A stretch of 64,000 nt of DNA from an uncultured Clostridia bacterium (GTDB lineage: Bacteria > Bacillota > Clostridia > Christensenellales > Borkfalkiaceae): positions 1-64,000 of the forward strand of contig CANQMX010000010.1 in NCBI GenBank assembly GCA_947625095.1, in the 5' to 3' direction. The position numbers were made by a program, and so were the translations under genes. Numbering within the stretch: the first letter of the stretch is position 1; each line of letters opens with the position of its first letter. Of this stretch, positions 8,867-44,342 are shown piece after piece. A model generated the notes under the pieces. It had not been told where the DNA came from. It saw nothing but the letters and a program-made list of their open reading frames with translations, and did not search any database.

Positions 8867-8881
8867 AATTCAATTTATGCG

Positions 8882-10320: not shown

Positions 10321-10544
10321 GGTCGAAGACACCCGCGCGGGAGAATTGCAGGCCCCCGCGGAATGGCGTTGAGAACACAACGCACGCCGCAGAGACCGCG
10401 CTCGTCGGTGGGATAGTCCCGACGCATACAAGGGCGTCAATTCAATGATCGAGGAAAAAATTCGAAATAGCCTGATTCGGCTTCATAGAAAACACTCGCC
10501 CTCCGACCGCAGGACGGGATGTTGACGAAATGGAGGTATGGGAA
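10321..10544 (+). ncRNA. Structured 5' leader of the giant gene (candidate RNA element)
   Basis: The ~220-nt leader can fold as a multibranch structure. A closing stem pairs GAATTG (10343-10348) with CAATTC (10438-10443). Inside are GCGG/CCGC plus GCGTTG/CAACGC (10358-10390, loop AGAACA) and CGTCGG/CCGACG (10403-10424). GACGC (10421-10425) can instead pair with GCGTC (10434-10438), which would compete with both neighbours, as in a switch. I do not recognise a known riboswitch class. GGAGG (10532-10536) is the ribosome-binding site of the giant gene. Confidence 0.4.
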
Positions 10545-13500
10545 ATGAAAAGACTTTCATTAACGAAACTGCAAAAGCGATTATTGATCATCTTATCGAT
10601 ATTCTTTTCTGCGCTGATGTGCGGGGCGCTCGTCTCCCTGCGCGGCGCCGGCGCATACGCCGCAACGGTTGATCATCCTCTTTCCAGGTATCTTTATTAT
10701 GGGAATTTGACCACCGTCAATGGAGTTGACGGCTATATCATCACGGGCTTTGAATACCACGAAACCGACGGAAAAGAATTCGGCACGGAAACTAATCCCG
10801 CCGTCATTCCCGCGCAGTTCAACGGCTATCCCATCATCGGCATTGCGGACGGCGTTTTCGGCGGCGCAAACAGTATCAAGCATATCACATTCAACCGTAT
10901 CACCGACGCCAGCGGCGGCGGGGATCCGGCATACCCCGGGGAATCGCCGGCAGAGCGCGCTGCGGCGTTCAACCGCATGCCCGCAGAGTGCCAGGCGATC
11001 GGCACCGCGGTCCGTCAATTCGGGCACAACGTTTTTGCCGCAAGCGATATCGAAACCATCACTTTGCCCGGTTCCCTTGCGGATCAGGGCGACGGCACAT
11101 TCTTCAACTGCGCCAAACTGAAATGGGTCGGCAGCTTTATGACGGCGGAGGAGACGCCGGTCAAAGACATGTCGCACCTGCCCTATCTCAAAAATTACGG
11201 GTCGAAATGCTTCATGTTCGACGCCAACATGAAAGACGTCGTTCTGCCCGATTATACTTTGGGCGAAGGTACCACAACATACTATCCCCAGGGCAAAGGC
11301 TTGGTCGAAATCGGCGACACGTGCTTCTATCAAACGACTGCGAAGAACTCAACATTCGTAATCCCCGCGTCTGCGACCAAAATGGTCGAGGACCCGTTTG
11401 ACGGTCTTGGAAATGTTACAAGTGTTACCGTTAAAGGCGACTCCGGCGGCTATGAAGATTATCCTTGGGGATTTAAGAAGAACCAAATTACTTTCACGGG
11501 TCCGAATACAGAAAATAACGGAACATTTTATTATAATACTCAAACAAAAATCTTGGGACCGCTGATGGCGGGCAAAAGCGGGACAATCACAGTGCCTGCC
11601 GCGATAGGGGCCACTACGTTTGTCGGGCTTGCCCCCGGAACATTTGCGGGAATCAGTGACGACGCAGATAGTACTACTACGATTACCTTTGCTGACGGAT
11701 GGAGTGGCGTGCTTAAAGAATTGCCGTCCGCTTGTTTCAAAAATTCAAGCAAAATAACCACGGTAACAAAATTGCCGGACAGTATAGAAAAAATCGGCAC
11801 AATGGCGTTTTTGAACTGTTCGGGTTTAACAAAAGTCGGCACGACAAGCCACGACAATGCTAACACGATCAATCTGCCGACAAGCTGCACAACGATCGGG
11901 TTTTGGGCTTTTCGGTCAACAAAAGAAACAACCGTAAATATATGGGCTTCTGCTCCCGCCTCCGAATTCTTGGTATCGCAAGCCGCTTTCGTGGGGAACA
12001 GCAACCTTACAAGCGTCAACTTCAAAAATTTGACGGATGGAACTCCGCGCCAAATCGGCAACTTAAAGGAACGCCCCGAAGAGGAAAGCATCTGGAATGA
12101 AAAGACGTTCCCCTTCGGTGCAATCGCAAACGCAAGTTGCAATATAACATATTCCCGCACCAGCAGCGCATCTGCGACAAGCGAGCCCGCCACTGTTTCA
12201 TTTACTCAAAATGGCACCTGGCGCTGTATTATCCTGTCTGATGATTCTGGAGATAAAACAACCGATGTGCAGATCGTACGTACGTCCGGTGTTACTAAAT
12301 CCGGAGCACTCACTATACCGTCAGAATTTTCCAATGGCGGAACAACATATAAAGTCGTCAAATTCGGCAACCCGAACGGCAACAATGACGCGCGCACTTT
12401 GGGAACAGGCAACACGTTAGGCAAACTTATTATCCCCGAAGGCGTGCGGGAAATCGGTTACATGGTTGTAGGCGGCACGATCGGGACCAGCGGAACGCAA
12501 AGTCAAGTAAACCTGCAATTGCCGTCTACGCTCACCAAGATCGACGACTGGGCATTCAGCGGCGTAACGCTGTACACGGCCCTGCATTTGCCGTACAATC
12601 TCCAATATATCGGTCTGCGGTCGTTCCAGGGCGGCACTCACATCTCCAATGAGACATTGGTCATGCCGGCATATCTGAACTATATCCACGTCTCGGCGTT
12701 TGCGAATGCCGTAGCGCCCAACTTGACGGATATCTACTATATGCAGTACCGCACAAGAGAGTCCGACAAGACGTTCTCCCGTGCCGACGGCAAATATTTG
12801 CAGTTTTCGGGGAAGAATTCCTCTTCGTCTGCGGGCTCGGCGGGGATAAAACAATCGACAGGCGGCACGTCGCCGACCGTCCACTATATGGACGACTATA
12901 CGCCCTATGTCTATGAGATCGGCGCGGAAGATCTGAAAAATACCGAGAGGGCAAGTTACCTGCCGGCGGTTTCTCATGCAACGGATAAGGGCAACCATGC
13001 CTACGACATGCCGACCGACGACCCCGTGTTTGCCACCCCCAAAGAGCAGTATGACCCCGTGTTGGGCACGCTTTCAGGGTATGTGGCGGATATTCGGTTC
13101 GGCGTCCGCATGATGACGCAAAAGAATCTTATCGACAATGTCCAAATGCAAAACGGCGGCATTGTGTCGCAGGTAATCAAACAAAATACGAAGTTGGGCA
13201 ACAATACTGTAAAGGACACGGAAGATTTCTATTTGGTCTTCCTGGACGATGTTGTTCCCCAAGGCGATTACGTCTTCAAGATAGGCTACAAAGACGAAAA
13301 GTTGCAAGCAGCTGTCAATGAAAATGGCTTGGAGCTTTATTCCGATACAAACGCTATTTACAATACATATTTCAGCGTCCATATCGATATCTACGCCTCT
13401 GTCAAATTCGAACACGCGCTCACCGAAACCATCGGCGGTCTTATGCCCGGAAATATGAGCGAGGACGATGAAGGCAGAGCGCTCTTGAAGAGCAAGAACC

Positions 13501-16500
13501 GCGTCTACACCGAGAAAACCGGCGACGGATTTACATCTGCTTCCGAGGTCACAGCCAGCGACGGCGACGGCATTATCAGCACGTTAAGGCTTCCCGTGCC
13601 CTCGTTCAACCATCAGGCGGCGGAATTTATCGGTTGGACCACCGAACGTTCGATCGGCGGTCAGGTGTGGATCGGCGAACCCGAAGAAGGCCAATATACC
13701 GCAATCGGCGAAGATTTCAGTGTCTCCCTCGACCAGTTGGACGAAAACGACCAGATCACCGTATATTCCGTCTTCCGTCTGAAACTCAACAAGGTCGATG
13801 ACTATGACTGGGATTACGGCGACGACCCCGATAGAGAATTCCATAAACCCACCGACTCGGTCGCCGCGGGCACTTTCACGATGTTCCGAAAGGGCTCCGA
13901 CGGCGTTTGGCGTGCGGAAGAAGTTGTGGATGTTGCGGCGGGCGGTCTCGGCGTAGCGTTCTTGAACAACTTTAACGAATCGACCCACGCGGGCGAATGG
14001 GTCGTCTTGCAAGGCGCACAAAAGGAGGCATGGGAAGCCGCAAAGGGGGCAGGCACCGACACCGAATTTGAAGCGTTCTGCAACGGGTTGTACGGCGCGG
14101 GCACCAGCTATGATATTTCGGACTTCACCGTCGACAAACTTGAGATAAGCCCGACTGTGAGCTCCACTGTGTCCGAGCCTTACGGCTCGCATATCTATGG
14201 CAATTATAAAGGCGAGTATGCGGACGGCAATTCTTCCATTGAGGAATACCTGTACGGAGAAGACAGTTCGGGAAGGCCGTTTATCACTACCAACCCCAAT
14301 TTGCCCGGTACCCAGACGAATAAGGACGCGTTCACCATAACGTTGAGCGGGGGCAAGAGCGGCGAGCCCGCTCCGCACGTCGGAGAGACGATCACCTATA
14401 CGGTCGCCGTTAAGACGGACGCCGCAAAGGGCATCGAGGACTATGTCATATCGGGCGGGCGCACGTCGGGAACGTACACGGTCACCGCGCGCGAGCTTGC
14501 GCTCAATATCGAGCTCGTGCGCGACATGAAAGACAGTTCGCCGAAGCAAACACTGTCCGCTACGTTAGAGAACGGCGTCAATACGTACACCTGGACGTAT
14601 TACGGGAAGCAGGGGTATGAAAGCATCGAGGTTGCGCCTTCGGATACGCAGCCCGTAAACGGCGGGTTCGTCTTTGCCGACAATGCGGAGGCCGCTTTCG
14701 GCACCTACGTCCCGCACTTTGATCTTGAAGAAGTCAAGGCGGGGTCGTACAGCATTTATGTGCAGTTGACAAGCGCGGCGGATAGCCATCTGAACGACGA
14801 CTACAATATCACGCTTATCAACAACCGTGCCCCGGACGGCGGAAAGACCGACGACGGCTATCTCGCCGCACACGTTACCATAAATAAGTTGCAGATCACA
14901 TCTCCCACGTTCAAAGAGATGTATTTCGGCACGGAAATCACAAAAGAAAAACTGCAATCGTATATCGACGCGCATGCGGAAGTCGTCGTTCCCGAAGGCA
15001 CAAACGAGCTGCCGTCGAAGTATTGGGACGAGGAGCGCTTCAATGCGCTGCTCGGCGGGGATGCCTCCGCGCCCACGATCTACACAATGGGCGATCCCGT
15101 TGAGGGCGGCACCCATCACTCGGAGAAGGCAGAGGGGCTCACCAATCCCGCGGACTATTGGTATGCGGGCACTTATGTCGCGCCCTTCACATTCACGGAT
15201 GCCACAAACTACGCATGGCAGGGGCAGGCTTCGGACGCGGCGACGCTCAATGCGAACTTCGAGATCAAGAAGGCGGTGTTGCTTCTTACCACAACGCAAA
15301 ACCGCATTGTGTATTACAACGGTCAGAATTATAACTATTACGATACATTTGATAACCCCGGCGAACAGCGCGAAAAGGGCCTTGTGCATGTTACGATCTA
15401 TAACAATCAAGGCAGTCAAGCGGCGTTGCAGATTTGGGGCGGACAGGGAAGCGGCCCCTCCACAAACGATTGGTCTACGCGTGTGTTCAAGTTCGACGGC
15501 AGCGTCACAACGGCGCTCACCAACGCCGGAACCTATACATACCACTTCGAATTGCAGGGCGACGGCCGCACGAACTTCGTGATTTACGAAGTGCCCGAAG
15601 CAAGCGCTCCCCCGGGTTCGCCCGAAGGGCAGAGCACGTGGCAAAACGTCACGGAATATTCCGCAGAGATCGACTACGTCATCAGAAAGGCGCAGTTCAA
15701 GCTCGAACTCACAAGTGACCTTTCGACCGACGCTGTCTACTACGACGGCACGGATAAGGCGACGGAGCTCTTCGCGAACCACTTCAAGCTCACCAACGTC
15801 AACGCGACCGCAACATACACGTACGCCGTGCCCGCATACAACGGCGACGCAGGTGTCCACGGCTATCGCGTGACCTATCGCCCGTCGACCACGGAAACGG
15901 GCTTCGGCGCGACCACCGCGATCGACGCGGGGTTCTATGTCCTCATCGTCCAGTTGCAGGGCGTCGACGCCACCAACAACATTGAATTTGTAAGCGGCGA
16001 AAACTATTCTCTCACAAGCACTACGCAGATCACTTGGGACGGCGTGTATGGTGACGGCAACGTCACAATGGACGGCTACGACGGAACAACCGCTCCCAAC
16101 GGCACCGTGCTTGCCATCAAGCCCGCGGAGATCGAGGTCACCGTGGACGGCACAGCCCGCTATTTCCAGAACGTCGCGTATAACGTGGCGGATATCGTCA
16201 AGCTCCAAAGCAACGGCAACGGCTCTATCGCCAACCTCACCACGAGCGACTACATCATCACGCTGACCGGCTTCAACCCGGTGAATGCGGCGTACACTTC
16301 CGAAACGGCATACCCGGGCGGCGATATTTCGCTCCTTCACGCGGGTAGCTACGGCTTCGCGGTGGCGCTTACCAACGACACAAACGCCAACACGACGAAT
16401 AACTACCGCTTTGTGGTAAATGGGGACGTCTACACGGTAGGCGCCGATACGAGCGCGGAGGATACGATCACAAGTTCGGCAAAAGCGGACGGCAAACTGC

Positions 16501-19500
16501 AAATTGAGATCAAGCCCGCTTCCGTGGCGGGAAATGTGCTGATCTATGCCCCGGGAAATGAGTTCTCTCGCCAGTACACGGGCGACGAGACCTCGTTGGG
16601 TCTCATCGTTGCCCTTACATACGGAGAAAACAATCCTCGCACACTTCCTTCCCAGAGCAGCGAGAACGGCTACGACTGGCTGATCTCCGTTGACGGAGCC
16701 GAGGCGCAAACGGCATCCGATGTGCACATCAAGGACGTCGCAAAATACACCATTACGATCGGGCTGTACGGCTCCGCCGCAAACGATTACGCCGCGGGTG
16801 ATTGGCAGTTGGTCTATGAGATCACCAAGGCGACTATAAGGGTAAGCGACCCCGAACGCGCGACTTACAACGGCAAAGAACAGGAACCCAACGTGCCCGT
16901 CACTACTTCCGCCGCTGTCATAGAGGGCGCCGAGGGCGACTATACGTTGTCGTATGCTGCCAACGGCGGCACAAATGCCAAATTGGGCGACAACAATAAG
17001 CCTCTCAACGCGGGCACATATACCGTCACGTTCACGCTCACGGAGCAAGGTCAAAAGAACTTGGCGATTTCGGGCGCGGAGGGCGCGGAAAAGACGCTTA
17101 CCTTCGTCATTACGCCCGCGCTTTTGAACATAGAGACGGGCGATGAATCCTATACCTATGACGGACAGCCGCACCAAAAGGTGTCCGGCACGGTAGGCGA
17201 CTACATCATCCTCTCGAACACCGCCAACGAGAGCGTTCTGCCCGAGGAGAGCGGCTATGAAATCAAATATGAATACACCGGTTGGTCGAGCGGCTATCGT
17301 CCCGTAACCACCGATACATTCATCAACGCCGGCACATACAGAGTGACGGTCACTTTGAGCGACAAGAATTATCTCTTCTCCACCGGCAGCAGAGATAATT
17401 ACAGCTTCACCTATACGATCGAGGCGGCAACGCTCGAACTCGACGACGGCAACACGACCTTGACGTTCATCGAGGGCGTAGAACGCAAAGGCGAGGAACT
17501 TTCCGCAACCAAAGACGGCGTCTTCCAATACAATATGGGCGATTGGGAGCCTCTTGCCACGATCTCCTACAAACTCAATGGCGTGGATCATGTCCTGACG
17601 TTGGAGGATGATACCGAATATTCCGTTTCGTATTCCAACAACAGAACGGTCGGCTCCACCGCAACGGTGACGATCCGCGGCCTCAACAACTACACGGGCA
17701 GCATTACGTTGACCTTTGAGATCACCGCCAAGTCGCTCGGCGACGCCCCCGAGGCAGACGGCGATACCCTCACCAACGAACAGTGGGGCGCGGGCACGGT
17801 ATCCGACGGGATCACCGTTGCCGACGTCAACGGCTGGGTCTACTCTGCCTCGGCGCACATCGTGTCGCCCACGGTCACCTATGCAGCAAGCGGAACTACG
17901 GGTTCGCTTGTCTCCGGCAAAGATATGAACTTCACCTTCTGGCGCAAACAGGGCGACAGCTGGGTGAAGCAGTCCTCCAATGAGATCACGGACGCGGGCA
18001 CATACCGCGTGCTTGTCGAGGGCATCGGCAACTACACCGACGCATTGTATGTGGAATTCGAAGTCACGCCTTCGCTGGTGGTTCTCAAACCGGACAGAGA
18101 ATTGACCTTCTCCTACGACCGCACCGCGCACCAAGTCGGCGTGGTATTCTCGTCGACGAGCGTCAACCCGACGGAGAGCGATTACGAGCTTGCCTATACA
18201 TATACAAGCGATTATTTCAAAGCGGATGACGAGCGTTATATCAACGCCGGGCTTTACACCCTCGAAGTCACGCTGACAAACGGCAACTTCGCATGGGATA
18301 GCGAGCATACACATTGGACGCAAGCCTATTCCGGCGCGAAGGACACTGCGCCCACCGATGGTGATACCACAGGCCTCTTCCATTACCCCGACACCGCCGA
18401 GCATGTGATCGTCAAGTTTGAGATCACAAAGGCGCAAGTGTCTGTATCCGGCCTTGAAGATGTCACCTTCAACCGCGAGGTGCAGCTTCCCACGGTCACC
18501 TTCCGCAACAGCACGAACGCGAAGGTCTTGCCCATCCTCGGCGAGGACTGGGGCTATTGGTTCGAAGCCACGAACAAGTGGCAGAAGATCAACATGGCGT
18601 TTGCAAGACCCGATGACCACTTCTTGGGTATCCCCAGCCATGCGGATGAATACAAGGCACACGTCGTGCTCTTGGGCGACGCGCGCGGCAACTTCGAGAT
18701 CGTTGACGCCACGGCCGGAAATGTCGAGGAAACCGTGAGCGTCATCACGGACTATCCCAAAAAAGAGGACGGAACCGTCGACAATACGACGCTTTCGGGC
18801 GGCGATTCGGCGGGGCTCTTATATGCCGCGGAAGTCGCGCCCACCGATGATTTGAAGCCGGGCATGCACTTTGAGACGACCTTCACGGTGTCCCAGCTCG
18901 ACATTCGGCTCCTTCAAGAAATTTCGAGCGTGACATATGACTATGATTTCAGCATTGAGGGGAGTGATGCCGGCGTTGCGGAAGCGCGTCAGGGCCGTCA
19001 CACCAACGACGCGCTCGCAATTAGCTTCATGAACCTCAAAGGCAATGCGGAAGTGGACGACGTGCCGTATAGGCTCTTTGTCTACCGCATGGACGCGCAG
19101 GGCTATTATATCAATGCAGCCGGCGAACGTTACGCCGTGAGCGGGAGTGACAAGGGCAAGACCGCCGCAATGGCAGATGAGCCTTTCCTCGTATTCCACT
19201 ACACGACGGGTACGGAAACGGGCAACTTCGTGCACTTTGGCAAGTGCACTGACGAATGCGACAGTTCCACCGGAGAGGCAACTTCGCACCATCACATTCA
19301 CTTTACCTACGAGGCCGACGGCAAGGTGCGCTACACCGAGGACGCGCTTACCTCGCACTCGACAGAAATTCAGAAGCTGCGCGAAGCGTTTACCAACGCG
19401 GGCAAGTTCGACCTCTATGTCGTGCTCGATAATTGCAGTTACAACATTCAAGGCGGCGAAACGCCTCTCGATGGTTTCAAACCCGATTGCTATCAAGATA

Positions 19501-34500: not shown

Positions 34501-37500
34501 ACGAGGCTCTGTTCAACATCGCACTGACAGTCAAATATACTGCGGAGCAGGTCAGCACGGGCAAGGCGCTTAAAGCGGGCAGTTACCCGATCACGGCAAG
34601 CAAGCGGGAAAGCTACGAAGAAAGCGCGGCATTCAACAGCTATGTTGTGACATTCGCCTCCACGGAGCCGCACCTGACTGTCGACAAAGCCAACATCACC
34701 ATCAGCATTTTGAGCGGCGTAAAGGGCAGCGTTTATGGAGATACGCTCACGGTAGGCGATGTCTCGTGGAACAGCAAGGATCATCCCGAACTGTTCGACG
34801 CCACGGTGGGCGGCGGTTATGTCACGGGCGACGTACTCGATTTCGATATGTACGCTTCCCTGATAGACGACGTGAGTGCAGGCAGATTTGCCAAAGCCGG
34901 GAATTACGCGATTTATGCAAGCGGATGGCTCAGGCTCGCCGACAATGTAAACTACAATACTCCCACGTGGACGGGTTCGTTTACAGGCGGCGTGAATTCG
35001 GACGACGCGATCTATGTAAACACGGCGGGCATCTATACCGTCGACAAGAAGCCGATCGAGGTCACGATCAACGACGCCGAATCCGAATACGGCGAGACGA
35101 TCGACAGCAGGATCTTCGGCTATACACTGCCCGAGGGGTGGCAGGTCGGCGACGATACGGCGGATGACCTTCGCATCAGACTTTCCACCGATGCGACCGC
35201 AAGCTCGCCCGTCAGCGCAACAGGCTATGCGATCAACGGCTATTCGAACAGCGACAACTATGAAGTGACCTTCAAGGGCAGCTATCTCAACGGCACAAGC
35301 GGCACGCTGACCATCGATCCTCGCAGGATCGTGGTGGTCATCCGTCCTCAGAGCAGCGTCTACGGCACCAACCCCGTGGCAAGCTACGAAACGAGCAAGT
35401 GGTTTGTCGTGAGGGGCGGCTCCGAAGTCAACGCGGACAATCAAGCTACCGAATGGGCAAGCGTGTTCGGCGCGGCCAAAGAGAGGAATATGGGTGAATT
35501 GCTCATCACGCTCACAAAGGGCATCACCTATGTAGACGGCAACAGGTGGAGCAACGGCAACGGTCTGTTCGTGGGTCAATATGCGATCACGGGTCGTTGC
35601 GACAATCCCAACTTCGACGTGGTATTCCGCGGCTACAACAGCGAATACGACGAATCTGTCGAGAAGTACGCCCCGGCTCTTTCCGCAGAGACGGAAAAAG
35701 AAAAAGCGGAAGAGTGGGGCAAAGTGTCCGACACTTGGGGCGTATATACCATCACGCCGCTCGATGTCACGGTCAAGATCAAGAATCGCACAGGCGTCTA
35801 CGGCTCGATCCTGACGGACGGCGAGACCCAGCTTCGCTACAACGCGAAACTTGTCAACACGCAGAGCGTCGCATGGACGTACGGCGAAGGCAGCGGGAAA
35901 TTCACCGTCGGTCACGAGCAGTACCTCGACTTCTATCTGCGCGGCGACGCGGCGAAAGGAAATATCTTTGCCGATGTAGGCGACCATCAGATCGAAGGCT
36001 TCTGGGCGGAGACCATTGCCGAAGGCGATACGAACCTCTATGGCATCAAGCTGAACTACAATGTCACATTCGTCAACGAAAAGGGCGATGGCGATCGCGG
36101 CGTGTTTACGGTCACCCCTGCGGAAATCCGTCAGAACACACGCGAGGCAGAGGGCGACGAGACCTTTACGGGTACGCTTTGGAACCAGACGCAACTCTAC
36201 CGCGGCACGAACGTGGAATATTCGCTCAAAGTCGACGAAAGATTCTTCTTCTTCGAAGGCGAATTGACATTCGGCAAAGATGTCCTGAATGGCGGCTCCG
36301 TGACGTACGGTGCGGCAACGGTCACCTACACGAACCTCAAGAAAGACAATCAAATGATGCACGCGGGTGTAGTGCCCGAGGATCAACTTAAAATCACAAC
36401 CTACGGCGTATGGACGGTTGAAGTGACCATCGTCAAGGATAACCACAAGGAGGCGACCTTCACGCTTTCGCTCACCGTGGTGCAGGCAGACCTCACCGTC
36501 ACGTTGAAAGCGGGGGTGCACTTCACGGCCACCTACGGCGAATATCTTGCAAGCGGGCAGGATGCCAAGGACGGCGCAAAGACGTTCGACGAGTTGAAGG
36601 AAGCCCTCAAAGCATGGCTGTTTGATACGGCGGTCATCGAAAAGATCGAGGGCGCCGAGAACATCGCGACCGACCTCAAGACGCTGATAGAAATGCTCTT
36701 GAAGATCGAGGGCGACGACGCGATCACCGTGTCCATCATTACCACAGACGATCACACGAGTACGGGCGGCTATCTGAATGCAGGCAACTATGTCCTCAAC
36801 TTCGAGGTGAACGGCAACATCAAGATCAAGTTTGCCGAGATCTACTCCGCCGTGACAGTCGCAAAGCGGGAACTCAACATGACGTGGGAGCCCGCAGAAG
36901 GCGATGAGCCCGAAGTGGCAGGCAACACCTTCACCTATCGGTACGACGGCGAGAACCACAACGTGGTCGCAATGCCCACCGATGTGCTCGGCGGCGATAT
37001 GGTCGCGAACTTCGGTATGTCGTACTATCTCGTCAGAGGCAGCGAAGAGATCACCCAGTTGGAGATGAAACTTGTCGGCGAGTATCGCGTAAGGATCGTT
37101 GTGGATAGCAACTCTGCGGCAGAAGGCAACCGCGACATCGGCAACTACGATGTCCTGCCCGTCGAATTGACGGTCATTATCAGGGCGATCAACATCACGG
37201 TGCGCATCAACGACCGTACGAATGAGTATGGCGAGCAGGAGCTCGACCCGAACGCTGACGGCGCTTGGGAGATCATCGAGGGCGCAGATACCTTGCCCGA
37301 GGGCGAGGATCTTCAGATCACGCTTGAGTTCGCCTCGTTCGACGGCGAGAGACGTCCCAGCGGCACATATAAGATCTCCGGCCGTTCCGGCAACGCGAAC
37401 TACACAGTCACATTCGTGGGTAGCTATGGCGGGTCTGACGGCGATTGCGGCACATACACCGTGACAAAGAGGAAGATCATCGTCACTGTCCACGACATCA

Positions 37501-40500
37501 CCGCCATGTACGGCGACTACACGCGCGAAAGCCTTGCGGACTACAACTTTGTGGCGCTCGGCGATCGGGCATATCACACAAGCCGTCCCGACGGACCTGT
37601 CGGCTATTCGACGATGGCGCAGACCAGCACGGTCACCATATTCCCGGATGATATGGAAACGTTGGCGCCGAGCATAACGCTCGATCCTGCAAGCGCGCAA
37701 TATACTATGGAAACGGGCTATCTGAAAGCGAACGAGGCGGGATACAGGCTCATCTGCGACTACAATAGGGGATTCAATTATGATATCACCTTCATGCTGG
37801 ATAGCGGAGATCAGTACAACGGAGCCGACAATACGTCCAAACTCATCATCAACAAGAAGGCGTTGAACGTAACCATCCATACGAGGGGCGCGGTCTACGG
37901 CGATGATCGTCCCACGATGCCCATGAATTACAGCGTCAGCGGCTTCGCGCCCGCAGACATTACATGGTTTGATGAAAACCGTGATACGGCGCGATCCTTC
38001 CTGAAATTCACGGTCAGAAACGCTCTGACGGGCAATGAGCTGGACGAGAGCAAGACATTCGATCCCGTCGGCGTGTACATCATATTGCTCGAAAGCAATA
38101 CGTCCAACGGCCATGATATCGGCAGCAACTATGAGATCACCGTTACCGGCGAGTGGACGGCATTTGGCGAATATACCGATGCCAAGTTTGTCGGCAAAGC
38201 GGGTAAATATGAAGTCACTCCTCGCTCGGTCACCATCATGATCCACTCCGCAAGCGGCGAGTATGGCGATCCCGATGTGGCGGCGCGCTTCACGGTCGAT
38301 ATCATGAGCACGCAGTTTGCTCCCGGCGATACGGCGGATAGCATCAAGAGCATGATAACCTTTGATACGTCCAACGTATTCGATGAACTCGGTCACACCA
38401 AGGCCGCAGGCTTCGGTTATGATGTAACCGCAGAGATCTTGTCACCCAACTATACGCTTGACGGCACGCTTACCGCACAATATCAAGTGCTCCCGCGCCA
38501 GATAGACCTTATAGCGCTTGACCGTACAAGCGAATACGGCGACCTCCATCAATTCCTTGTCGCGGATGGAGGATACTCGCAAGGTTGGGACGCGGTTCGC
38601 TCCGGCGGCACGGCGGGCGACGCTATCGCCTATGCGACCGACGAGATATACGACCTCATCAAAGTGGCGACGGACGCGTCAAGCATTGCGGATGCGGGCA
38701 CCTACAGGATCTACATCGATGTAAACACGATCAATCTGGATAAGAACTATCATATCAACAACATGACGGACGGCACGCTCACAATCGAGCGCCGCAAGAT
38801 AAGAGTTCGCGTCAATCCGCAATCCAGCGAATACGGCGAAGAGCATGTGCTTTCCGATAGATATGAGCAGGATTGGACTGCGGAGCGCTTCTCGGCGGCG
38901 ACGAAGTATTCGGACGAGAACGTGGTCGTATTGCCCAGTGATATCTACGATATCGTCCTTAGGTTCGCAACCGACGTCGACAGGACTTCACCCGCGGGAG
39001 AATACGACATCGCGGCGGAATTCAACAACAAGAACTATGTCGTCGCATTTGTCGATGGCAAGTACACCATAACGCCGCGCAAGATATCCGTGAGGATAGA
39101 AAACGCCTCCGGCGAGTACGGCGATCCCGTGAGCGAACTCCGTTGGACGGCAAGCCGCGTCGGCGGCAACGCCATCGTCAACGGCGACGTGCTCGACATC
39201 ACGCTAAGTGCGGTCTTGACGGACGGCAGGCTTGTTGATACGACCATCGGCATCGGCACATATCCCATCATTGTCACGGCTGCTGACAATCCCAATTATG
39301 AGATCACCTACACGGGCGACTACGACGGCACGCTGCCCGAGAGCAGTAAAGGCAACGCGGCAGGCAACTATGAGGTGACAAGGCGCCGCATCATCATGAC
39401 CTTCAACGGCGAGAGCGAATACGGCGACGAGATCGATCCTTTCGGCGCAAGCTACCGCGCGGACGGAAAGGAAGGTCCCGCTCTCGTCAACGGCGATAAG
39501 TTGGGCTATGGCTACGAATGGATAGACGACCCGTATGCGTCTGAGCATATGGTAAGCGGACATCCCGCAGTCGGCGAATACAGGTTGCAAGTCAGCAAGC
39601 CGACATCGCCCACCGCCGAGCAAGACAATTACGAAGTGGTGAGCGACAATGTCAACTATTCCAGCGTCTACAAAGTCGTGCCTCGTAAGGTGACTGTCCG
39701 CGTCATGGACGGCGGCAGGACGTATGGCGATGAGTTTATCGATCCGAATACGGACATCATGGGTAAACTCGACATAACGCGCACGACGCCCGGCAAGAGT
39801 GGCGATCCCATCCTCAACGAAGACATCGAATTCTTCTCGCTGAAAGTAGTAGACGGCGACGTGGCCCGGTTGACCGGTGGCATCCCGTACTTTGCAGGTA
39901 CGTATCACTATGACCTCAGATACACCCTTGACAATCCCAACTACGAGCTGCAAGTTGTCTATGGCAACTATGTCGTTTCGCCCAAGGCCATAGCGGTGCA
40001 TATCGACGACAAGACCCAAAACTACGGCGAAGACTTGCTTGAACTCACGCACAGCGCGATAGAGGGCGTCCTCGACGGCGATGATCTCGGCTTTGCACTG
40101 TCCGTGCTGTGGGGCGAGGATCAAGAGGGCTTGACGTGGCACAATGCGGGCGAGTATCGCATCGAGGCAAGCGCCGCCAATCCCAACTACAAGTTGGTCA
40201 TCGAGGGCTCGCTTGGCGACGCAGGCAAATACACCATCTTGAAGGTGCGCAACTCGTGGATCAAAGAGTACTCTGTCGAAAGATTGTTGCAGGGCAATGA
40301 GCCCGATCCGGAACTCCTTCCCGAGGCGGAATGGGGTGACGTGATCGTCAAATACTATCTTGACGCGGAGTGCACGCAGGAATTGGGACGTGACATCAAA
40401 TACGCCGATCTGGGCACATACTTTGTCAAAGCCACCGTCCTTGACACCATCAACTGGGATGGGTTGGAGAGCGTCTATACCCTCGAAGTTTACAACGACT

Positions 40501-40622
40501 TCCTCAACATCGACGGAAAGGATATCACGGCATATGTGTGTCTGTTCGCATCTCAATTCATCATCGGCCTCTGCGCCCTGCTCTTCGTCGGGCGCAAGAA
40601 GAAGCAAAAAAATAAAAAATAA
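10545..40622 (+). CDS. Giant MBG-repeat surface protein (10,025 aa), membrane-anchored
   Basis: One uninterrupted frame of about 30 kb, a protein of roughly 1.1 MDa. Residues 1-39 are a signal peptide ending in GAYA. About residues 65-750 are BspA-type leucine-rich repeats (IGIADGVFGG, IETITLPGSL, LTKIDDWAFSG). A mixed region follows to about 1250, then MBG-type beta repeats to about 9,900: some 18 divergent ones first, then about 55 regular ones of ~110 residues with the pattern VTVxIxDQxSVYGE ... NYEVTFxGSW ... AGTYTVxxR. The protein ends with a membrane helix (AYVCLFASQFIIGLCALLFVG) and a lysine-rich tail; there is no LPXTG. It is very poor in cysteine. The start is set by GGAGG eight bases upstream of the ATG at 10545. 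It is likely a long cell-surface stalk displaying the leucine-rich domain, an adhesin by analogy. It is probably co-transcribed with the gene at 40688. Confidence 0.95.
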   Translation: MKRLSLTKLQKRLLIILSIFFSALMCGALVSLRGAGAYAATVDHPLSRYLYYGNLTTVNGVDGYIITGFEYHETDGKEFGTETNPAVIPAQFNGYPIIGIADGVFGGANSIKHITFNRITDASGGGDPAYPGESPAERAAAFNRMPAECQAIGTAVRQFGHNVFAASDIETITLPGSLADQGDGTFFNCAKLKWVGSFMTAEETPVKDMSHLPYLKNYGSKCFMFDANMKDVVLPDYTLGEGTTTYYPQGKGLVEIGDTCFYQTTAKNSTFVIPASATKMVEDPFDGLGNVTSVTVKGDSGGYEDYPWGFKKNQITFTGPNTENNGTFYYNTQTKILGPLMAGKSGTITVPAAIGATTFVGLAPGTFAGISDDADSTTTITFADGWSGVLKELPSACFKNSSKITTVTKLPDSIEKIGTMAFLNCSGLTKVGTTSHDNANTINLPTSCTTIGFWAFRSTKETTVNIWASAPASEFLVSQAAFVGNSNLTSVNFKNLTDGTPRQIGNLKERPEEESIWNEKTFPFGAIANASCNITYSRTSSASATSEPATVSFTQNGTWRCIILSDDSGDKTTDVQIVRTSGVTKSGALTIPSEFSNGGTTYKVVKFGNPNGNNDARTLGTGNTLGKLIIPEGVREIGYMVVGGTIGTSGTQSQVNLQLPSTLTKIDDWAFSGVTLYTALHLPYNLQYIGLRSFQGGTHISNETLVMPAYLNYIHVSAFANAVAPNLTDIYYMQYRTRESDKTFSRADGKYLQFSGKNSSSSAGSAGIKQSTGGTSPTVHYMDDYTPYVYEIGAEDLKNTERASYLPAVSHATDKGNHAYDMPTDDPVFATPKEQYDPVLGTLSGYVADIRFGVRMMTQKNLIDNVQMQNGGIVSQVIKQNTKLGNNTVKDTEDFYLVFLDDVVPQGDYVFKIGYKDEKLQAAVNENGLELYSDTNAIYNTYFSVHIDIYASVKFEHALTETIGGLMPGNMSEDDEGRALLKSKNRVYTEKTGDGFTSASEVTASDGDGIISTLRLPVPSFNHQAAEFIGWTTERSIGGQVWIGEPEEGQYTAIGEDFSVSLDQLDENDQITVYSVFRLKLNKVDDYDWDYGDDPDREFHKPTDSVAAGTFTMFRKGSDGVWRAEEVVDVAAGGLGVAFLNNFNESTHAGEWVVLQGAQKEAWEAAKGAGTDTEFEAFCNGLYGAGTSYDISDFTVDKLEISPTVSSTVSEPYGSHIYGNYKGEYADGNSSIEEYLYGEDSSGRPFITTNPNLPGTQTNKDAFTITLSGGKSGEPAPHVGETITYTVAVKTDAAKGIEDYVISGGRTSGTYTVTARELALNIELVRDMKDSSPKQTLSATLENGVNTYTWTYYGKQGYESIEVAPSDTQPVNGGFVFADNAEAAFGTYVPHFDLEEVKAGSYSIYVQLTSAADSHLNDDYNITLINNRAPDGGKTDDGYLAAHVTINKLQITSPTFKEMYFGTEITKEKLQSYIDAHAEVVVPEGTNELPSKYWDEERFNALLGGDASAPTIYTMGDPVEGGTHHSEKAEGLTNPADYWYAGTYVAPFTFTDATNYAWQGQASDAATLNANFEIKKAVLLLTTTQNRIVYYNGQNYNYYDTFDNPGEQREKGLVHVTIYNNQGSQAALQIWGGQGSGPSTNDWSTRVFKFDGSVTTALTNAGTYTYHFELQGDGRTNFVIYEVPEASAPPGSPEGQSTWQNVTEYSAEIDYVIRKAQFKLELTSDLSTDAVYYDGTDKATELFANHFKLTNVNATATYTYAVPAYNGDAGVHGYRVTYRPSTTETGFGATTAIDAGFYVLIVQLQGVDATNNIEFVSGENYSLTSTTQITWDGVYGDGNVTMDGYDGTTAPNGTVLAIKPAEIEVTVDGTARYFQNVAYNVADIVKLQSNGNGSIANLTTSDYIITLTGFNPVNAAYTSETAYPGGDISLLHAGSYGFAVALTNDTNANTTNNYRFVVNGDVYTVGADTSAEDTITSSAKADGKLQIEIKPASVAGNVLIYAPGNEFSRQYTGDETSLGLIVALTYGENNPRTLPSQSSENGYDWLISVDGAEAQTASDVHIKDVAKYTITIGLYGSAANDYAAGDWQLVYEITKATIRVSDPERATYNGKEQEPNVPVTTSAAVIEGAEGDYTLSYAANGGTNAKLGDNNKPLNAGTYTVTFTLTEQGQKNLAISGAEGAEKTLTFVITPALLNIETGDESYTYDGQPHQKVSGTVGDYIILSNTANESVLPEESGYEIKYEYTGWSSGYRPVTTDTFINAGTYRVTVTLSDKNYLFSTGSRDNYSFTYTIEAATLELDDGNTTLTFIEGVERKGEELSATKDGVFQYNMGDWEPLATISYKLNGVDHVLTLEDDTEYSVSYSNNRTVGSTATVTIRGLNNYTGSITLTFEITAKSLGDAPEADGDTLTNEQWGAGTVSDGITVADVNGWVYSASAHIVSPTVTYAASGTTGSLVSGKDMNFTFWRKQGDSWVKQSSNEITDAGTYRVLVEGIGNYTDALYVEFEVTPSLVVLKPDRELTFSYDRTAHQVGVVFSSTSVNPTESDYELAYTYTSDYFKADDERYINAGLYTLEVTLTNGNFAWDSEHTHWTQAYSGAKDTAPTDGDTTGLFHYPDTAEHVIVKFEITKAQVSVSGLEDVTFNREVQLPTVTFRNSTNAKVLPILGEDWGYWFEATNKWQKINMAFARPDDHFLGIPSHADEYKAHVVLLGDARGNFEIVDATAGNVEETVSVITDYPKKEDGTVDNTTLSGGDSAGLLYAAEVAPTDDLKPGMHFETTFTVSQLDIRLLQEISSVTYDYDFSIEGSDAGVAEARQGRHTNDALAISFMNLKGNAEVDDVPYRLFVYRMDAQGYYINAAGERYAVSGSDKGKTAAMADEPFLVFHYTTGTETGNFVHFGKCTDECDSSTGEATSHHHIHFTYEADGKVRYTEDALTSHSTEIQKLREAFTNAGKFDLYVVLDNCSYNIQGGETPLDGFKPDCYQDTCACAIMEKFTFEIAQATITPYLFDSSLDAESAPALSGSALQITYDGNSHRLWVWFTNNSNNKALPESRTPAGTKEELTASKYYAQFAYEGWAGNFTSSSEVQTGTHDYKDVGKYTVQISLLETGNFRLVDGYETTIVYNINAQQLTITDENVTFDFIEDSESKKAELDREQARINGTFIYIADDWKPVVKVSYKGTELILVDGDLGDYTLSYLANRNASADATVTITGAHNYSGTITLKFTISPKSLGTSKYDDETIVGNDSEIFESQLTEDSKGFVYTGSQLNYTTIFSYGPNGAGKGDTEKLASMAMGADYTRTLYQWNGSSWDRASAVVNAGRYRVVATGTGNYQDNYVIEFTVAKATVRVVDPASATFNRKEQIPTIAFENVDEGNSVVPQRSDRTSYTVTYSISAGVGNNAKLGTNSQPYFAGTYDVKVTLESENFQFADGATEETVPFVIDQLGVFAVQIVPEESYNGASNFKGDIYGTTAENRYGGNGAWTFNFNSVNGTDVGGIGYTVTFTGTDKEGREHTVVVTLGGYKMGDPATLLEDTFTLDGEESTWDAISALGLLTDVNWDGKIKPYTLTLGFADGNYKFESGTNTFNFTVTPAIVTLDSIESKVYNAEEQTPDITFSLLYTDSVLSKEQANSELADQFTLKYRVNGSRDSFGNKKPLDVNKYDVEVTITNHNYAFDRNGTDVGTQTFEITPLDINSVTYFEVTIPEKVYTGNEITNALTEVKVTVGDKEITFKQKASADNEVELTDDWFKIIAYDSNIHVGYANVTIQAGKNFTGTRQVLGGFKIVARNIIVRIASHESVYGQDVTVSSVQGTGWDVVDPSDYTKYPEFDWNWEADWSSVESNPNHYVVFRSDSLGIELGIDDGRYSAAESGALLVGKYSISDHSIHIAGNADYNITFVGDWDGEDEYNGAAGTYTVTPREIVLSIGDMSSQYGDHMQEAIEAGGMLDKDTLLSAISAHDSYTGTAILEADREILFGGITLSIVHNNNWSEGANKWLNAGSYAIVAKYAVGSTSATYYIDGGEGDTYNVGDQYKITLAGNFAGEGEYDADSGFEGTPAYNGHAGIFEVTAREITITITHIQHEYNKAEPTDEELKWELKAGSNLAEGDSKDILGVKLTKDPGVDVAFYSVNGAYTESGSYIVKFENGVNAVEITRRKVTVTLKAQSSVYGEDEVVGNVKDENWTAALSNSSTYFGQEGVEAIVVGDDLNINITKDLGANVGTYNLNATYSNNNYEVTFEGTDKNYEITKRNIIIEIGDRSSAYGETLNINESVWHVVEDTAQYTEDTLTQNWTGNPHYNDENLGVKLRIASEGYTGISSVLKVKEGGYAIIVDGSSLNPNYNFYFKGAWEGDGSYAGGDAPMGGAYSGHAGKYTVERRAIVITPTDASSTYGEKLLDEINAEISDKSAWNATSEYAGNAILAADLDELAQYISFSLAGTDGKIRTSGYLGAGSYAMVGNFDTAHDVGRICDNYEVTFKGSWTGEENNGTAGTYTVEKKSITVTINPGVMTYEYDGEDHTDILAFGTEYAETKADGWTLDDVFTCTDLVKKAADGSADDTLETLQITLTKDTGADVGRWSVTPSYENEDYSVTFEGATQAVEITQRQIIVHIHDQYAVYGEAETVNREMGADDKTGAWHATFAEESVYTSGNAIAADDDLNLYLTKNFGAAVSEVGYAIYGTYTNSNYKVTFEGSFEGSGQYQDGTLYAKHAGTYHIVARKIAVEILDQHNTYGEVPKLSSTQGVAWKLYEGSFTPAYDEDVKAINDNTLVNSDSLRFNFTTDATQTTKVADKCDITVTYENANYDVTFYYKDSRLPSEGGEATAEGALITDKRAISITLQGVTVKYGELPKGAVLYRYENDGQGGHSELLIGNEMGKDWIARSALSGNGAAIVNNDNLVLVIGIWYYDTETRTGKPYEAGIYVADAGKCYVYARLATAEDQAAASGRFTDLGDNANYDIMVVGNPEFPNDNRDPRGIYEITSGGTKYTSGAATLTIEKRNVTVTPVSQEVEYGTEYAEKSIEWTDGGDRYFDDDRAAFKELGGVQFETEPQRSTSGHIKVGRYTLVLKPIEDTDLPARANYNITRETGTYTVTPKAISVAITNGEGQYTGQRPTGLEAMVLAVKDGLLEGDLVSIARAVLPNVDGTWNVGKYPIQGTVMGDDSSNYTVTLTGDWTATGGAGTFTEASDGKNGVYEIKPIAITVEFSKQSSVYGSGSATLATNYSAINGIGWSVTDGRMVVGETLTFDVAILNANYFASYYILAGTYDVKLTYTQNKNYTITFKYSNESFGKNDEITPADGSLTVVGAFEVQQRAINVRINDKGHTYDGTELGSGAFGTGDYTVVSVTNDTGEAVVIYGGTRDNLNITLSKAEGVNAGTYAITGTCGNDNYAVTWQGSWAGAENRGVAGTYTIYKKAITVQIGDQNGVFAGKSAKEKYTLVQDGGYWSVVGDALVDADKADGKFTVTLSIVNSEGEWHAKSYAIMGEVGGASKDNYEVTFSGSWGGADENLNKAGTYTVSPLELAIELKDQTSVYDGKEPTALNVKYGEEEAWVFTADAIRTLGELLDGTTLDGESIDDVLKLTLSKAMGFNVGAYTITLDGWDNGDYKLTVSNEENEAYSITPRPVTVTVNGQHGVYGDALTVQGVDYTVEAADADSGLVGSDNLNITITLAEAGEGQTSTSGNRKVGWYSLIVTYSNENYTVTFKGDNSNLEGMEGYTPNTSSEITENEATIPNSFYVEKRQILVTIHDQNAMYDSSLCGTLDGDKPNQEKGKAWTAVSSTNGVGDAIIGADELDITISTVESPIDAGKYYLKGALGEGGDSENYSVEFSGSWEGGEDVDSSTAGTFTINPAELTIKITEQTHEYDGTAGTIGSAMTTNWSVTDGTLYGRDQADFTNAESGLKLVRAAGNDVNTYRLYSEFTHKNYTITWVESEYEITPRKVVVTILDQEHLYDSTVPAVGSEKDTNWTVALSESSTYHDTEAAAIVAGDKFGITLSKADGIDAGKYPITGVCDNSNYSVTWVGNWDKDGDTDVNPDNDGKAGTYTVNPRTVTVQLLPQNSVYGDPASPNSLKDIAWKDISASKSQDGILPIETLTIVFELPEQTSDKYNASHVLLVGKYALTVTYTYNKNYIVTFVLEDGSTIEGLAKEDYTASVADLYEVTKRQISVTVTAQDHIYDGTAGTVSNDAKYFTVGSALNAQTIVALAAGDTFESLALSLTREGTSDPDNVNVGYYDLIGICGNKNYDIQWNGLEGAFHIVGKQITIEIQNQEGTYNGKNNAHSAQNGESYWTIVDGELIAGDKNDSGKFDVTLTIENDGEWNVGTYAIYGKVTGTSAGNYTIVWQGDWSGREHNLTAGVYTINAKDITVTIDDVQSTYGDGEEALTWKIDEHDLAEGDTEADLGVNLTKETGSDAGEYAITGTANGKNYNVIFKGNWAKEDENKEKAGVYTVTQRPVTVTVYSQSGVYGGNQDKSIDSAQYNAWVVTEGDVLARDNLEITISIDFDEGDISELGKQLNAGWYSIIVTYHNDNYKVTFKCQHNIVTTSGNVTEDDVTNHPIEGTDDGEGTYTVQNGYRIYPRRLEITVADQSDDYKGTNVEPTVKQKGEGLPNAWTATNVLNGSMPPFVTDEEANAFAVLLKLESSDKWNAGTYKIIGEVTNEVDKNNYVIDSIQNGTFTIRPLDVTVTVKEQTYAVYNGTDWATEFLARTQAVTSYAENGFWTAVGVLDADQDLFAKAIELNLLGEAKNANVYSANGAWRADADADIKLNYVVTYEGGNVFTVQKRKLSVAIEDATSVYGEDIAVLKTGTISCTNDETEETGSRGSINGDDLGITLSKLGGTNVGKYAITGSWNNNSNYEVTFTGSWEGEGAENGQAGTYTITARKLTVHVNDQGGVFGGRTYTNLSQFQGDDANSGGWYIVGFTETEGISEHNQNTNYYIITGDNLLIVLELNNDTSSEDYAGKCAISAVCNNPNYEVKFTGSWEEEDEHKGTAGTFTVQKRKVTVTLRDQTVTYDGATHTAGEFNERNSGWTERVTNDPDNNTVTFVTPVELGGGRKSAPEITITLRMDEARNVGAYKVHIVITRDGETIFDSAETALGDTVRLLDNGSVVISTNEYEITVVGTTVRDKVGEESDDVRACGVYTITPKDVTLTIDDKTSMYGEAERELTWKDLSSGIVAADWDAVKAAIQLAIEGREDHLRGDNYLVAGSYHITATVESVEATKNYNFSFVGTTGTPNHGSYTVSKRNIGLRVDDETVVYGTEPTFTYTIVNLPGITGDVILSCDQELFDGAIKYTIINQELNTTGVRLNVGTYPIWISLDPDAVNVDLITDNYDITFTGLWSGYEVSGTEPGAAGTLTVRQKTITVTDITSTTNADRTSEYGDAVPTDWSYVAAEGSVLEGDTVTVVYSTLASEKANVGTYPITVALADSAEGNDNANYTMSMSRTVNYIITKRVVKVNIPEANAITYGEERVYPEVVVTRTSGEGVWNEYAGGELISNVEISCTVVDATLSASGFLRVKMQSGAIIGYDITVSLSGDNASNYQIDGTTTFDEKLIVNKRPVTVTIEDKESVYGESEQDLTYLVKGLAEGDEESLLGITLTRQGLSAGQSGVGKYAITGTFNCTDYEVTFSGNWNDAERYTSYNEKAGIYTITTRAVRIEIYNQSAPYGETITVGSVEKANWKALSGEEVDGIKYYSVKPGDSLGITLELKKLSEVTGSLTRGAYELSLDETTINPNYTVTVVRTELPDGDEANRLFPKDFNRSGTSIGSMMWGYSTPISTELQWANHGMFFVTIRDVDVLISDQSGVYGEAFTLSQYAESGAYSISLTKDTGTSGAVFIDGLDVTFDLVTTAFDGATAAGLARGKLSYAGQYPIFSSGITATQNGESLKDQSILQNYRFNFKGGWSIGGTYPSGSPYNGRVGVFTVQQRNVTVTVNDVSTTYGATYKDLNAAGGEFDLANQKGYTALVNNGTGKAFVTEDDEALFNIALTVKYTAEQVSTGKALKAGSYPITASKRESYEESAAFNSYVVTFASTEPHLTVDKANITISILSGVKGSVYGDTLTVGDVSWNSKDHPELFDATVGGGYVTGDVLDFDMYASLIDDVSAGRFAKAGNYAIYASGWLRLADNVNYNTPTWTGSFTGGVNSDDAIYVNTAGIYTVDKKPIEVTINDAESEYGETIDSRIFGYTLPEGWQVGDDTADDLRIRLSTDATASSPVSATGYAINGYSNSDNYEVTFKGSYLNGTSGTLTIDPRRIVVVIRPQSSVYGTNPVASYETSKWFVVRGGSEVNADNQATEWASVFGAAKERNMGELLITLTKGITYVDGNRWSNGNGLFVGQYAITGRCDNPNFDVVFRGYNSEYDESVEKYAPALSAETEKEKAEEWGKVSDTWGVYTITPLDVTVKIKNRTGVYGSILTDGETQLRYNAKLVNTQSVAWTYGEGSGKFTVGHEQYLDFYLRGDAAKGNIFADVGDHQIEGFWAETIAEGDTNLYGIKLNYNVTFVNEKGDGDRGVFTVTPAEIRQNTREAEGDETFTGTLWNQTQLYRGTNVEYSLKVDERFFFFEGELTFGKDVLNGGSVTYGAATVTYTNLKKDNQMMHAGVVPEDQLKITTYGVWTVEVTIVKDNHKEATFTLSLTVVQADLTVTLKAGVHFTATYGEYLASGQDAKDGAKTFDELKEALKAWLFDTAVIEKIEGAENIATDLKTLIEMLLKIEGDDAITVSIITTDDHTSTGGYLNAGNYVLNFEVNGNIKIKFAEIYSAVTVAKRELNMTWEPAEGDEPEVAGNTFTYRYDGENHNVVAMPTDVLGGDMVANFGMSYYLVRGSEEITQLEMKLVGEYRVRIVVDSNSAAEGNRDIGNYDVLPVELTVIIRAINITVRINDRTNEYGEQELDPNADGAWEIIEGADTLPEGEDLQITLEFASFDGERRPSGTYKISGRSGNANYTVTFVGSYGGSDGDCGTYTVTKRKIIVTVHDITAMYGDYTRESLADYNFVALGDRAYHTSRPDGPVGYSTMAQTSTVTIFPDDMETLAPSITLDPASAQYTMETGYLKANEAGYRLICDYNRGFNYDITFMLDSGDQYNGADNTSKLIINKKALNVTIHTRGAVYGDDRPTMPMNYSVSGFAPADITWFDENRDTARSFLKFTVRNALTGNELDESKTFDPVGVYIILLESNTSNGHDIGSNYEITVTGEWTAFGEYTDAKFVGKAGKYEVTPRSVTIMIHSASGEYGDPDVAARFTVDIMSTQFAPGDTADSIKSMITFDTSNVFDELGHTKAAGFGYDVTAEILSPNYTLDGTLTAQYQVLPRQIDLIALDRTSEYGDLHQFLVADGGYSQGWDAVRSGGTAGDAIAYATDEIYDLIKVATDASSIADAGTYRIYIDVNTINLDKNYHINNMTDGTLTIERRKIRVRVNPQSSEYGEEHVLSDRYEQDWTAERFSAATKYSDENVVVLPSDIYDIVLRFATDVDRTSPAGEYDIAAEFNNKNYVVAFVDGKYTITPRKISVRIENASGEYGDPVSELRWTASRVGGNAIVNGDVLDITLSAVLTDGRLVDTTIGIGTYPIIVTAADNPNYEITYTGDYDGTLPESSKGNAAGNYEVTRRRIIMTFNGESEYGDEIDPFGASYRADGKEGPALVNGDKLGYGYEWIDDPYASEHMVSGHPAVGEYRLQVSKPTSPTAEQDNYEVVSDNVNYSSVYKVVPRKVTVRVMDGGRTYGDEFIDPNTDIMGKLDITRTTPGKSGDPILNEDIEFFSLKVVDGDVARLTGGIPYFAGTYHYDLRYTLDNPNYELQVVYGNYVVSPKAIAVHIDDKTQNYGEDLLELTHSAIEGVLDGDDLGFALSVLWGEDQEGLTWHNAGEYRIEASAANPNYKLVIEGSLGDAGKYTILKVRNSWIKEYSVERLLQGNEPDPELLPEAEWGDVIVKYYLDAECTQELGRDIKYADLGTYFVKATVLDTINWDGLESVYTLEVYNDFLNIDGKDITAYVCLFASQFIIGLCALLFVGRKKKQKNKK
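21900..40250 (+). repeat. Regular MBG-repeat array inside the giant gene (~55 units)
   Basis: Each unit is about 330 bp and encodes about 110 residues. The recurring landmarks are a basic linker (often R-K/R-x-I/V), a beta strand ending in VYGE, VYGD or YDG, a segment with GDxLxITL, and NYxVTFxGSW ... AGTYTV. I counted about 55 units by eye between residues ~3,790 and ~9,900. Units differ clearly in sequence and length, so the array is old and diverged, unlike a recent slippage array. Confidence 0.85.
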
Positions 40623-40687
40623 AGGAAACAGTATTATGTCGGTCAAACGATATAATTCAAAAGAATGAAAAAAGGTAGGTAATAATC

Positions 40688-43600: not shown

Positions 43601-44299
43601 AAGGCACAGGCCGAGGCCGAAGAGCAAGCAAGAGCGGAAGCCGAAGCCAAGGCCCAAGCCGAGGCCGAAGAGCAGGCAAGGGCAGAAGCCGAAGCCAAGG
43701 CACAAGCCGAGGCCGAAGAGCAAGCAAGGTTAGAAGCGGAAGCCAAGGCGCAAGCCGAGGCCGAAGAAAAGGCACGGGCAGAAGCGGAAGCCAAGGCCCA
43801 AGCCGATGCCGAAGAAAAGGCAAGGTTAGAAGCGGAAGCCAAGGCCCAAGCCGAGGCCGAAGAGCAGGCAAGGGCAGAAGCGGAAGCCAAGGCCCAAGCC
43901 GAGGCCGAAGAGAAGGCAAGAGCAGAAGCGGAAGCCAAGGCACAGGCCGAGGCCGAAGAGCAGGTTCAAGCCGAAACGGTGCAGCCCGAGGAGGAGCCCG
44001 AGATCGAGGAGCTCTCCAAGAAGGAGATCAATGACGTCGAGCGCTATAAGGAAGTCGAAAGAGACGAGAACGGTATCGATGTGGTGGGCGTCATGTTCCG
44101 CCGTCGCGGCAGAAAGGTGTATTGGTTCGACCCTGACGGCAAGCAGTGGCAGAAAGGGGAGATCGCCCTCTACAAGTCGCCCGAAAATCCTCCGCAGGAG
44201 GTCATCGTAGTCGACAACACGAAGCTCTCGCCCGATAAGCTGCATCTGCCGTTGAAGCCGCTCTGCAAGGCATCGCGTGCTCCCAAGTCCAAGAAATAA
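40688..44299 (+). CDS. Membrane-tethered partner protein with duplicated unknown domains, Glu-Pro linker and Ala/Glu helix repeat
   Basis: A 1,203-aa protein. Residues 22-45 ([20 protein letters not shown]) form a membrane helix followed by HRVGRR, so by the positive-inside rule the rest lies in the cytoplasm. In order: a small beta domain twice (about 78-145 and 216-300; [19 protein letters not shown] and [19 protein letters not shown]), an (EP)18 linker (340-375), a ~150-residue basic domain twice (about 428-578 and 676-821; [15 protein letters not shown] and [15 protein letters not shown], both with LYLPLDP and MPYxST), 15 tandem 16-residue repeats (856-1095), and a C-terminal domain with [19 protein letters not shown]. 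It starts with GTG, with AGGTAGG eight bases upstream, 65 bp after the giant gene and without a terminator between. It is likely the cytoplasmic partner of the giant protein. I do not recognise any of the domains by name. Confidence 0.9.
41705..41812 (+). repeat. Hexanucleotide Glu-Pro repeat, 18 units
   Basis: Eighteen in-frame Glu-Pro dipeptides, written with mixed GAG/GAA and CCT/CCC codons. Glu-Pro runs form stiff, extended, protease-resistant spacers, as in TonB. The six-base period means copy-number change would keep the frame. Confidence 0.9.
43253..43972 (+). repeat. 48-bp tandem repeat, 15 units, coding for an Ala/Glu/Lys/Gln helix
   Basis: Fifteen units of 48 bp encode [16 protein letters not shown] or close variants; the last four residues vary between KARL, QARL, KARA and QARA, and unit 12 has QADA. 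The DNA units are nearly identical, so the array is young or homogenised and likely varies in copy number between strains. The peptide should be one long helix resembling the middle domain of TolA. Confidence 0.95.
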
Positions 44300-44310
44300 A
44301 ACAATCATCA

Positions 44311-44342
44311 AAGAAGGGCCATACACATGGCCCTTCTTTTTT
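44311..44342 (+). terminator. Terminator of the giant-protein operon
   Basis: AAGAAGGGCCAT (44311-44322) pairs with ATGGCCCTTCTT (44327-44338) around ACAC and runs into TTTT. It starts 12 bases after the stop codon of the 1,203-aa gene. Confidence 0.9.

Follow-up and report, generated by a model that had tools for sequence, protein, structure and literature searches.

A single open frame of 30 kb in a bacterial contig raises the question of whether it encodes a genuine surface protein, how a protein of that size would be held at the cell, and whether it works alone or together with the gene that follows it. The window (the whole stretch of DNA analysed, 64,000 nucleotides; G000:C10:1-64000) belongs to a genome of 1.78 Mb in 37 contigs, estimated to be 94.8% complete.

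The giant gene and its domain architecture

An open frame runs on the forward strand from 10530 through 40622, with no internal stop and no N, so the uninterrupted 30-kb frame of the original prediction is borne out. Translation gives 10,025 aa from the ATG at 10545 and 10,030 aa from the ATG at 10530; the former is the likely start, since a GGAGG lies just upstream of it, and the gene is therefore placed at 10545..40622 (+). The GC content at codon positions 1, 2 and 3 (0.525, 0.425 and 0.712) fits a coding gene, and comparison with four relatives yielded dN/dS values of 0.47 (G088, 4,358 codons), 0.48 (G052, 5,807 codons), 0.38 (G008, 1,962 codons) and 0.28 (G041, 1,126 codons), which indicate selection on the protein. 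Collapse or expansion of repeats in the assembly had been named at the outset as grounds for rejecting the protein. An artefact of this kind appears unlikely because no 25-mer is duplicated within the gene (eight 20-mers are), no tandem array is listed inside it by TRF, and relatives from other assemblies are colinear with it over thousands of residues. With a median identity of 25% among the repeats and no duplicated 25-mers, a short-read assembly would have little to collapse or expand.

Hydropathy revealed exactly two TM-like segments, at aa 18-36 and 10003-10021 (10,030-aa form). The first forms, together with preceding Lys/Arg residues, a predicted signal peptide region (10545..10664, +). 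The protein was then scanned against PFAM in 10 pieces of 1,000 aa, covering aa 31-10030. A head of BspA-type leucine-rich repeats, with approximate limits 10665..12899 (+), was recognized in piece 1 as LRR_5 (E 3.2e-31; 108.3 bits, over the cut-off of 27.7) in four stretches, the best at aa 655-750. The head is what the giant shares with BspA-type LRR surface proteins, from which it differs in its far greater length, its MBG stalk and its TM anchor; a weak HupY/LrrG match reached 24 bits against a cut-off of 1250. MBG_2 was found in 15 stretches of pieces 5, 6, 7, 8 and 10 and MBG_3 in one stretch of piece 4, with no MBG match in pieces 1, 2, 3 and 9; the curated MBG_2 cut-off was passed by pieces 6, 7, 8 and 10 only, and also by single repeats.

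A profile trained on the giant itself detected 61 repeats at a domain E <= 0.01 (60 at 1e-5), compared with three in the reversed giant (none at 1e-5) and none in ten shuffles. Of these, 53 make up a dense array at aa 3790-9894 (21897..40211, +) with a median spacing of 106.5 aa, and the other eight are sparse and diverged, at aa 1317-3685 (14478..21584, +). One repeat pair was modelled by AlphaFold2 as beta structure with a pLDDT of 96.2. The final segment, 40236..40619 (+), comprises a membrane-proximal stretch, a TM helix (about 40536-40592) and a KKKQKNKK tail, and this end is conserved in relatives. Thus, the signal peptide, LRR head, MBG stalk, C-terminal membrane helix and lysine-rich tail of the original prediction are all supported, and the profile search along the protein that it had proposed as a check found both the MBG and the LRR families. 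Its estimate of 70-75 MBG repeats exceeds the 61 detected, and about 86 would fit if the whole of aa ~800-9990 were MBG-like. A stalk reaching some 300 nm would follow from an assumed length of 4 nm per domain.

Anchoring and giants across the genus

Reading the last 130 residues of the giant directly, we found no LPXTG-type motif before the C-terminal helix. Among 103 genomes of the genus no sortase was found over the cut-off, with one sub-threshold fragment in G003, in a search that matched its positive controls (B. subtilis, C. glutamicum and L. lactis); a TM anchor is thus the rule in the genus. Among the loci fetched, 13 giants were complete at both ends (stop to stop) and were counted. 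These span 5,003-11,419 aa: G006 (5,003), G082 (5,008), G005 (5,673), G045 (6,061), G034 (6,129), G002 (6,384), G099 (6,512), G041 (7,373), G098 (7,562), G088 (7,828), G094 (8,916), G056 (9,443) and G093 (11,419). Giants cut by a contig or stretch end (G052, G049, G091, G008 and G003) were left out of the count. By hydropathy, each of the 13 carries a hydrophobic segment at the N-terminus and a TM-like one at the C-terminus, with one or two extra segments barely above the threshold in G088, G093 and G098. The claim that very few bacterial proteins are this large therefore stands in general but not within this genus, where giants of 5-11 kaa are common and their heads differ.

The modelled beta MBG repeats and the LRR head distinguish the giant from Ebh of S. 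aureus, whose repeats are helical and of the FIVAR type (FIVAR/GA-type); FIVAR/GA-type PFAM families were absent from the 10 pieces of the giant at E <= 0.1. The likeness to Ebh lies elsewhere: Ebh is reported to be a protein of ~1.1 MDa, thus of about equal size, with a secretion signal and an anchor of transmembrane/cytoplasmic domains in the place of a sortase signal (PMC6548404). Given this precedent, the lack of sortases over the cut-off and the TM-like ends of all complete giants, the proposal that anchoring without LPXTG is unusual for such a protein is not supported, and both its size and its anchor are normal for the genus. Extracellular giants of 3,000-8,000 aa are also encoded in the small genome of Apilactobacillus kunkeei (Giant1-5); unlike the giant of the window, these are described as having no transmembrane domain, an SH3b-like C-terminus and long helical repeats (PMC12863079).

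Orthologues with both the same head and the same anchor had been suggested as a further check, and the two ends of the protein gave different answers. Among 60 other genomes of the genus, three contain relatives of the head (1,195 aa), namely G008 (77%), G041 (46%) and G003 (40%), whereas the last 331 aa are matched in 42 of 103 genomes, own genome included, some of these matches being to MBG repeats only; MBG_2 is present in 72 of the 103. The giant aligns with G088 over aa 5623-10029 (69%), the head of G088 being dissimilar, and with G052 over aa 4158-10029 (68%). When ten heads of giants or MBG proteins were scanned with PFAM, LRR_5 was assigned in G041, Beta_helix in G002 and, slightly under the cut-off, DUF6273 in a protein on contig C9 of the own genome; the heads of G088, G005, G094, G056, G093, G098 and G045 gave nothing at E <= 0.001. 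At G031:C2 (about 24872-45218), two MBG giants of 4,105 and 4,275 aa stand in tandem with identical match scores, apparently the product of a recent duplication.

The downstream partner and its linkage to giants

Behind the giant, after 65 bp, a gene with a GTG start encodes a protein of 1,203 aa (40688..44299, +), which recurs behind giants and which we call the partner; the original prediction had not noted it. It consists of a short N-terminus, one TM helix (40766..40822, +; hydropathy and alignment A3), acidic linkers, a 146-aa domain present twice and named AKLIQ in this study, a Glu/Ala-rich array (43235..43964, +; TRF, 15 copies of a 48-bp unit) and a conserved C-terminus. The first AKLIQ domain (41978..42415, +) was delimited by alignments A1/A2 and modelled by AlphaFold2 with a pLDDT of 95.7, and the second (42710..43141, +) is 62% identical to it. 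Against PFAM and NCBIfam the partner gave low-complexity matches only, with no secretion family and no ribosomal domain, and among 55 AKLIQ members no PFAM match, whether to the YjbR/YdhG superfamily or to any other family, fell below E 0.0022 and none was common to more than four. AKLIQ thus appears to be an undescribed domain, with no family in either database. The AKLIQ domains are probably cytosolic, because the C-terminal flank of the partner TM is more positive than the N-terminal one in 21 of 21 alignment rows and because a protein of the own genome (G000:C5:39-1103, L103) fuses AKLIQ to a ribosomal L15-type domain (E 1.3e-10) and has no TM. In the partner of G005, the region following the TM shows a weak, below cut-off likeness to Big_3 (E 0.013), a usually extracellular family.

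Loci were collected from both sides of the gene pair. The giant's tail defined 30 loci, of which 28 had an anchor match; after removal of the own locus and two cut by contig edges, 25 could be assessed. A partner-type TM gene lies directly downstream in 17 of these, 14 like that of the window and three of a second type (L054, L056 and L060), and is missing in eight (L052, L059, L063, L064, L065, L066, L068 and L069), three of which (L063, L064 and L068) carry an rny-like gene by inspection. For the other set the AKLIQ domain was the sole query, 79 loci being retained out of 233 relatives, and the nearest same-strand upstream gene was counted, with 26 MBG genes omitted from the controls. An MBG gene stands upstream of 19 of 67 AKLIQ genes versus 0 of 629 control genes, and an upstream gene with a C-terminal TM was found for 32 of 67 versus 35 of 629. 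A looser count gave 30 of 81, the partner having a TM in all 30. In the own genome the partner follows three of five MBG genes (C4, C9 and C10, but not C5 and C16), and it also occurs behind shorter TM-anchored proteins, e.g., one of 1,364 aa at C4. The specific N-terminal TM family is confined to 17 of 301 genomes of the family and to 1 of 18 genera; something similar to this arrangement was seen on a Bacilli contig (L162). For Ebh, we know of no partner gene of the AKLIQ kind. Among the named AKLIQ loci, 61 of 79 come from 'Lapin' (French: rabbit) isolates, mostly labelled uncultured Clostridia, and judging from its genus-mates the window is probably of rabbit origin as well.

A terminator-like hairpin with a 13-pair stem and a T tail follows the partner (44310..44339, +), and the gap between giant and partner contains none on the coding strand. 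Since such matches are not above chance in the region (5 versus a shuffle mean of 8.0) and the coding strand at 9900-10700, ahead of the giant, yielded no promoter-like site, it is from spacing and conservation that we infer an operon of giant and partner. The recurrence of the partner behind giants in related species is a hint that the two form a surface system of two parts and not an isolated curiosity.

An alternative allele and the proposed apparatus

Contig G005:C25 (L112; CANRJR010000025.1, assigned partly by sequence matches) carries an alternative allele of the locus. It matches the window at 97% over 9855-10012, 95% over 10113-10356 and 94.5% over 41615-44668. Between these flanks, in place of 10357..41614 (the giant and the N-terminal part of the partner), it holds a giant of its own, 5,673 aa long, and a partner N-terminus unlike that of the window, the single match inside being 102 bp at 74.5% within the partner's TM region. 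The join falls in the acidic linker, near a CGAGCC repeat (41704-41813, TRF). Given that giant and partner N-terminus differ jointly between near-identical flanks and the AKLIQ part is retained, they look as if swapped as one cassette, in this single case; no further case of such flanks was found among the 103 genomes. Other matches of G005 to the window's upstream genes are merely 66-75% identical, and so the contig either belongs to a close strain and was misbinned, or was transferred; either way, two alleles exist between the same flanks. The 9,443-aa giant of G056 is flanked by QueH and asparaginase genes, adjoining the site of the window giant, which hints at a recurrent site.

The identity with G005 stops exactly at the 3' end of a tRNA-Gln (44594-44668), downstream of which lie an integrase (44851-46122, -) and TraG-like, TraD-like, MobL, methylase and ArdC genes, which marks 44594-63854 as an integrative conjugative element with this tRNA as its insertion site. 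Past the same tRNA end, G005:C25 (about 8665-12351) has different genes, one HNH-like and a T5orf172 gene with a ResIII helicase, and thus the site may be a hotspot. A C-rich hairpin-like repeat before the giant (about 10017-10063) has dozens of short matches in the 10 genomes searched and is probably a dispersed element of the genus. At the contig start, a gene for a large serine recombinase occupies 9-1742.

With modest confidence, we favour an adhesive fibre that is anchored by a TM helix and coupled to an adaptor in the cytosol, the coupling, topology and ligand being deduced. The giant, first gene of a two-gene unit, would be a fibre exported by Sec and retained in the membrane through a single C-terminal helix, independently of sortase, with some 60-86 serial beta domains keeping the leucine-rich head distant from the cell. 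The head would most likely bind a surface, such as mucus, plant fibre or another microbe. The partner would be a single-pass membrane protein with its N-terminus outside and, on the cytosolic side, a long acidic tail and the AKLIQ domains; its helix would pair with that of the giant, and it would couple or position the fibre from inside. The locus would then serve as an exchangeable cassette in which the giant and the TM-bearing N-terminus of the partner are replaced jointly and the cytosolic part is kept, so that the head can change. Counted against this explanation are the partner's absence from eight of 25 tail-defined loci and two of five own-genome MBG genes, the Big_3 likeness in G005, a cassette seen on the single contig G005:C25, a terminator-like site not above chance and the missing promoter-like site.

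The absence from eight of the 25 tail-defined loci would also suit an ordinary giant adhesin or steric shield working alone, with the downstream gene as a neighbour of separate role. Such a protein would resemble Ebh, which is reported to be TM-anchored and to act by its size (PMC6548404). We nevertheless hold this to be rather unlikely, as the linkage of MBG and AKLIQ genes is far over the control across species and the giant is replaced jointly with the partner N-terminus. Improbable in our view is a partner that helps to export or assemble the giant, e.g., by tethering the ribosome or nascent chain at the membrane, instead of as an adaptor of the finished fibre: the AKLIQ-L15 fusion and the partners behind shorter TM-anchored proteins would fit this role, but the partner of the window has no ribosomal domain and matched no secretion family. 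That the giant is a product of misassembled repeats or a frame open by chance would fit contigs that are solely metagenome-assembled, but it is hardly credible: the lack of duplicated 25-mers, the colinear relatives in other assemblies and dN/dS well below 1 across thousands of codons speak against it.

Only tentatively do we extend the adhesive fibre with a cytosolic adaptor to a transmembrane apparatus of sortase-less gut Clostridia, in which giant extracellular beta-fibres with exchangeable heads might each be paired through the TM helix with a dedicated AKLIQ adaptor and swapped with it as one cassette. Such an apparatus would loosely resemble an adhesion receptor with a link to the inside of the cell. 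The membrane partner that recurs behind giants, the variety of the heads and the cassette make the system worth following. The partner in particular opens it to testing, since it brings an undescribed domain, is predicted to form a membrane pair and belongs to a recombination unit showing which pieces travel together. Given that 30 kb of a 1.8 Mb genome are spent on one fibre, and that the pattern is found in many species of a genus in which no sortase was detected, the fibres are probably important to these bacteria in the gut; if the proposed coupling is true, a single giant adhesin would be connected to the inside of the cell.
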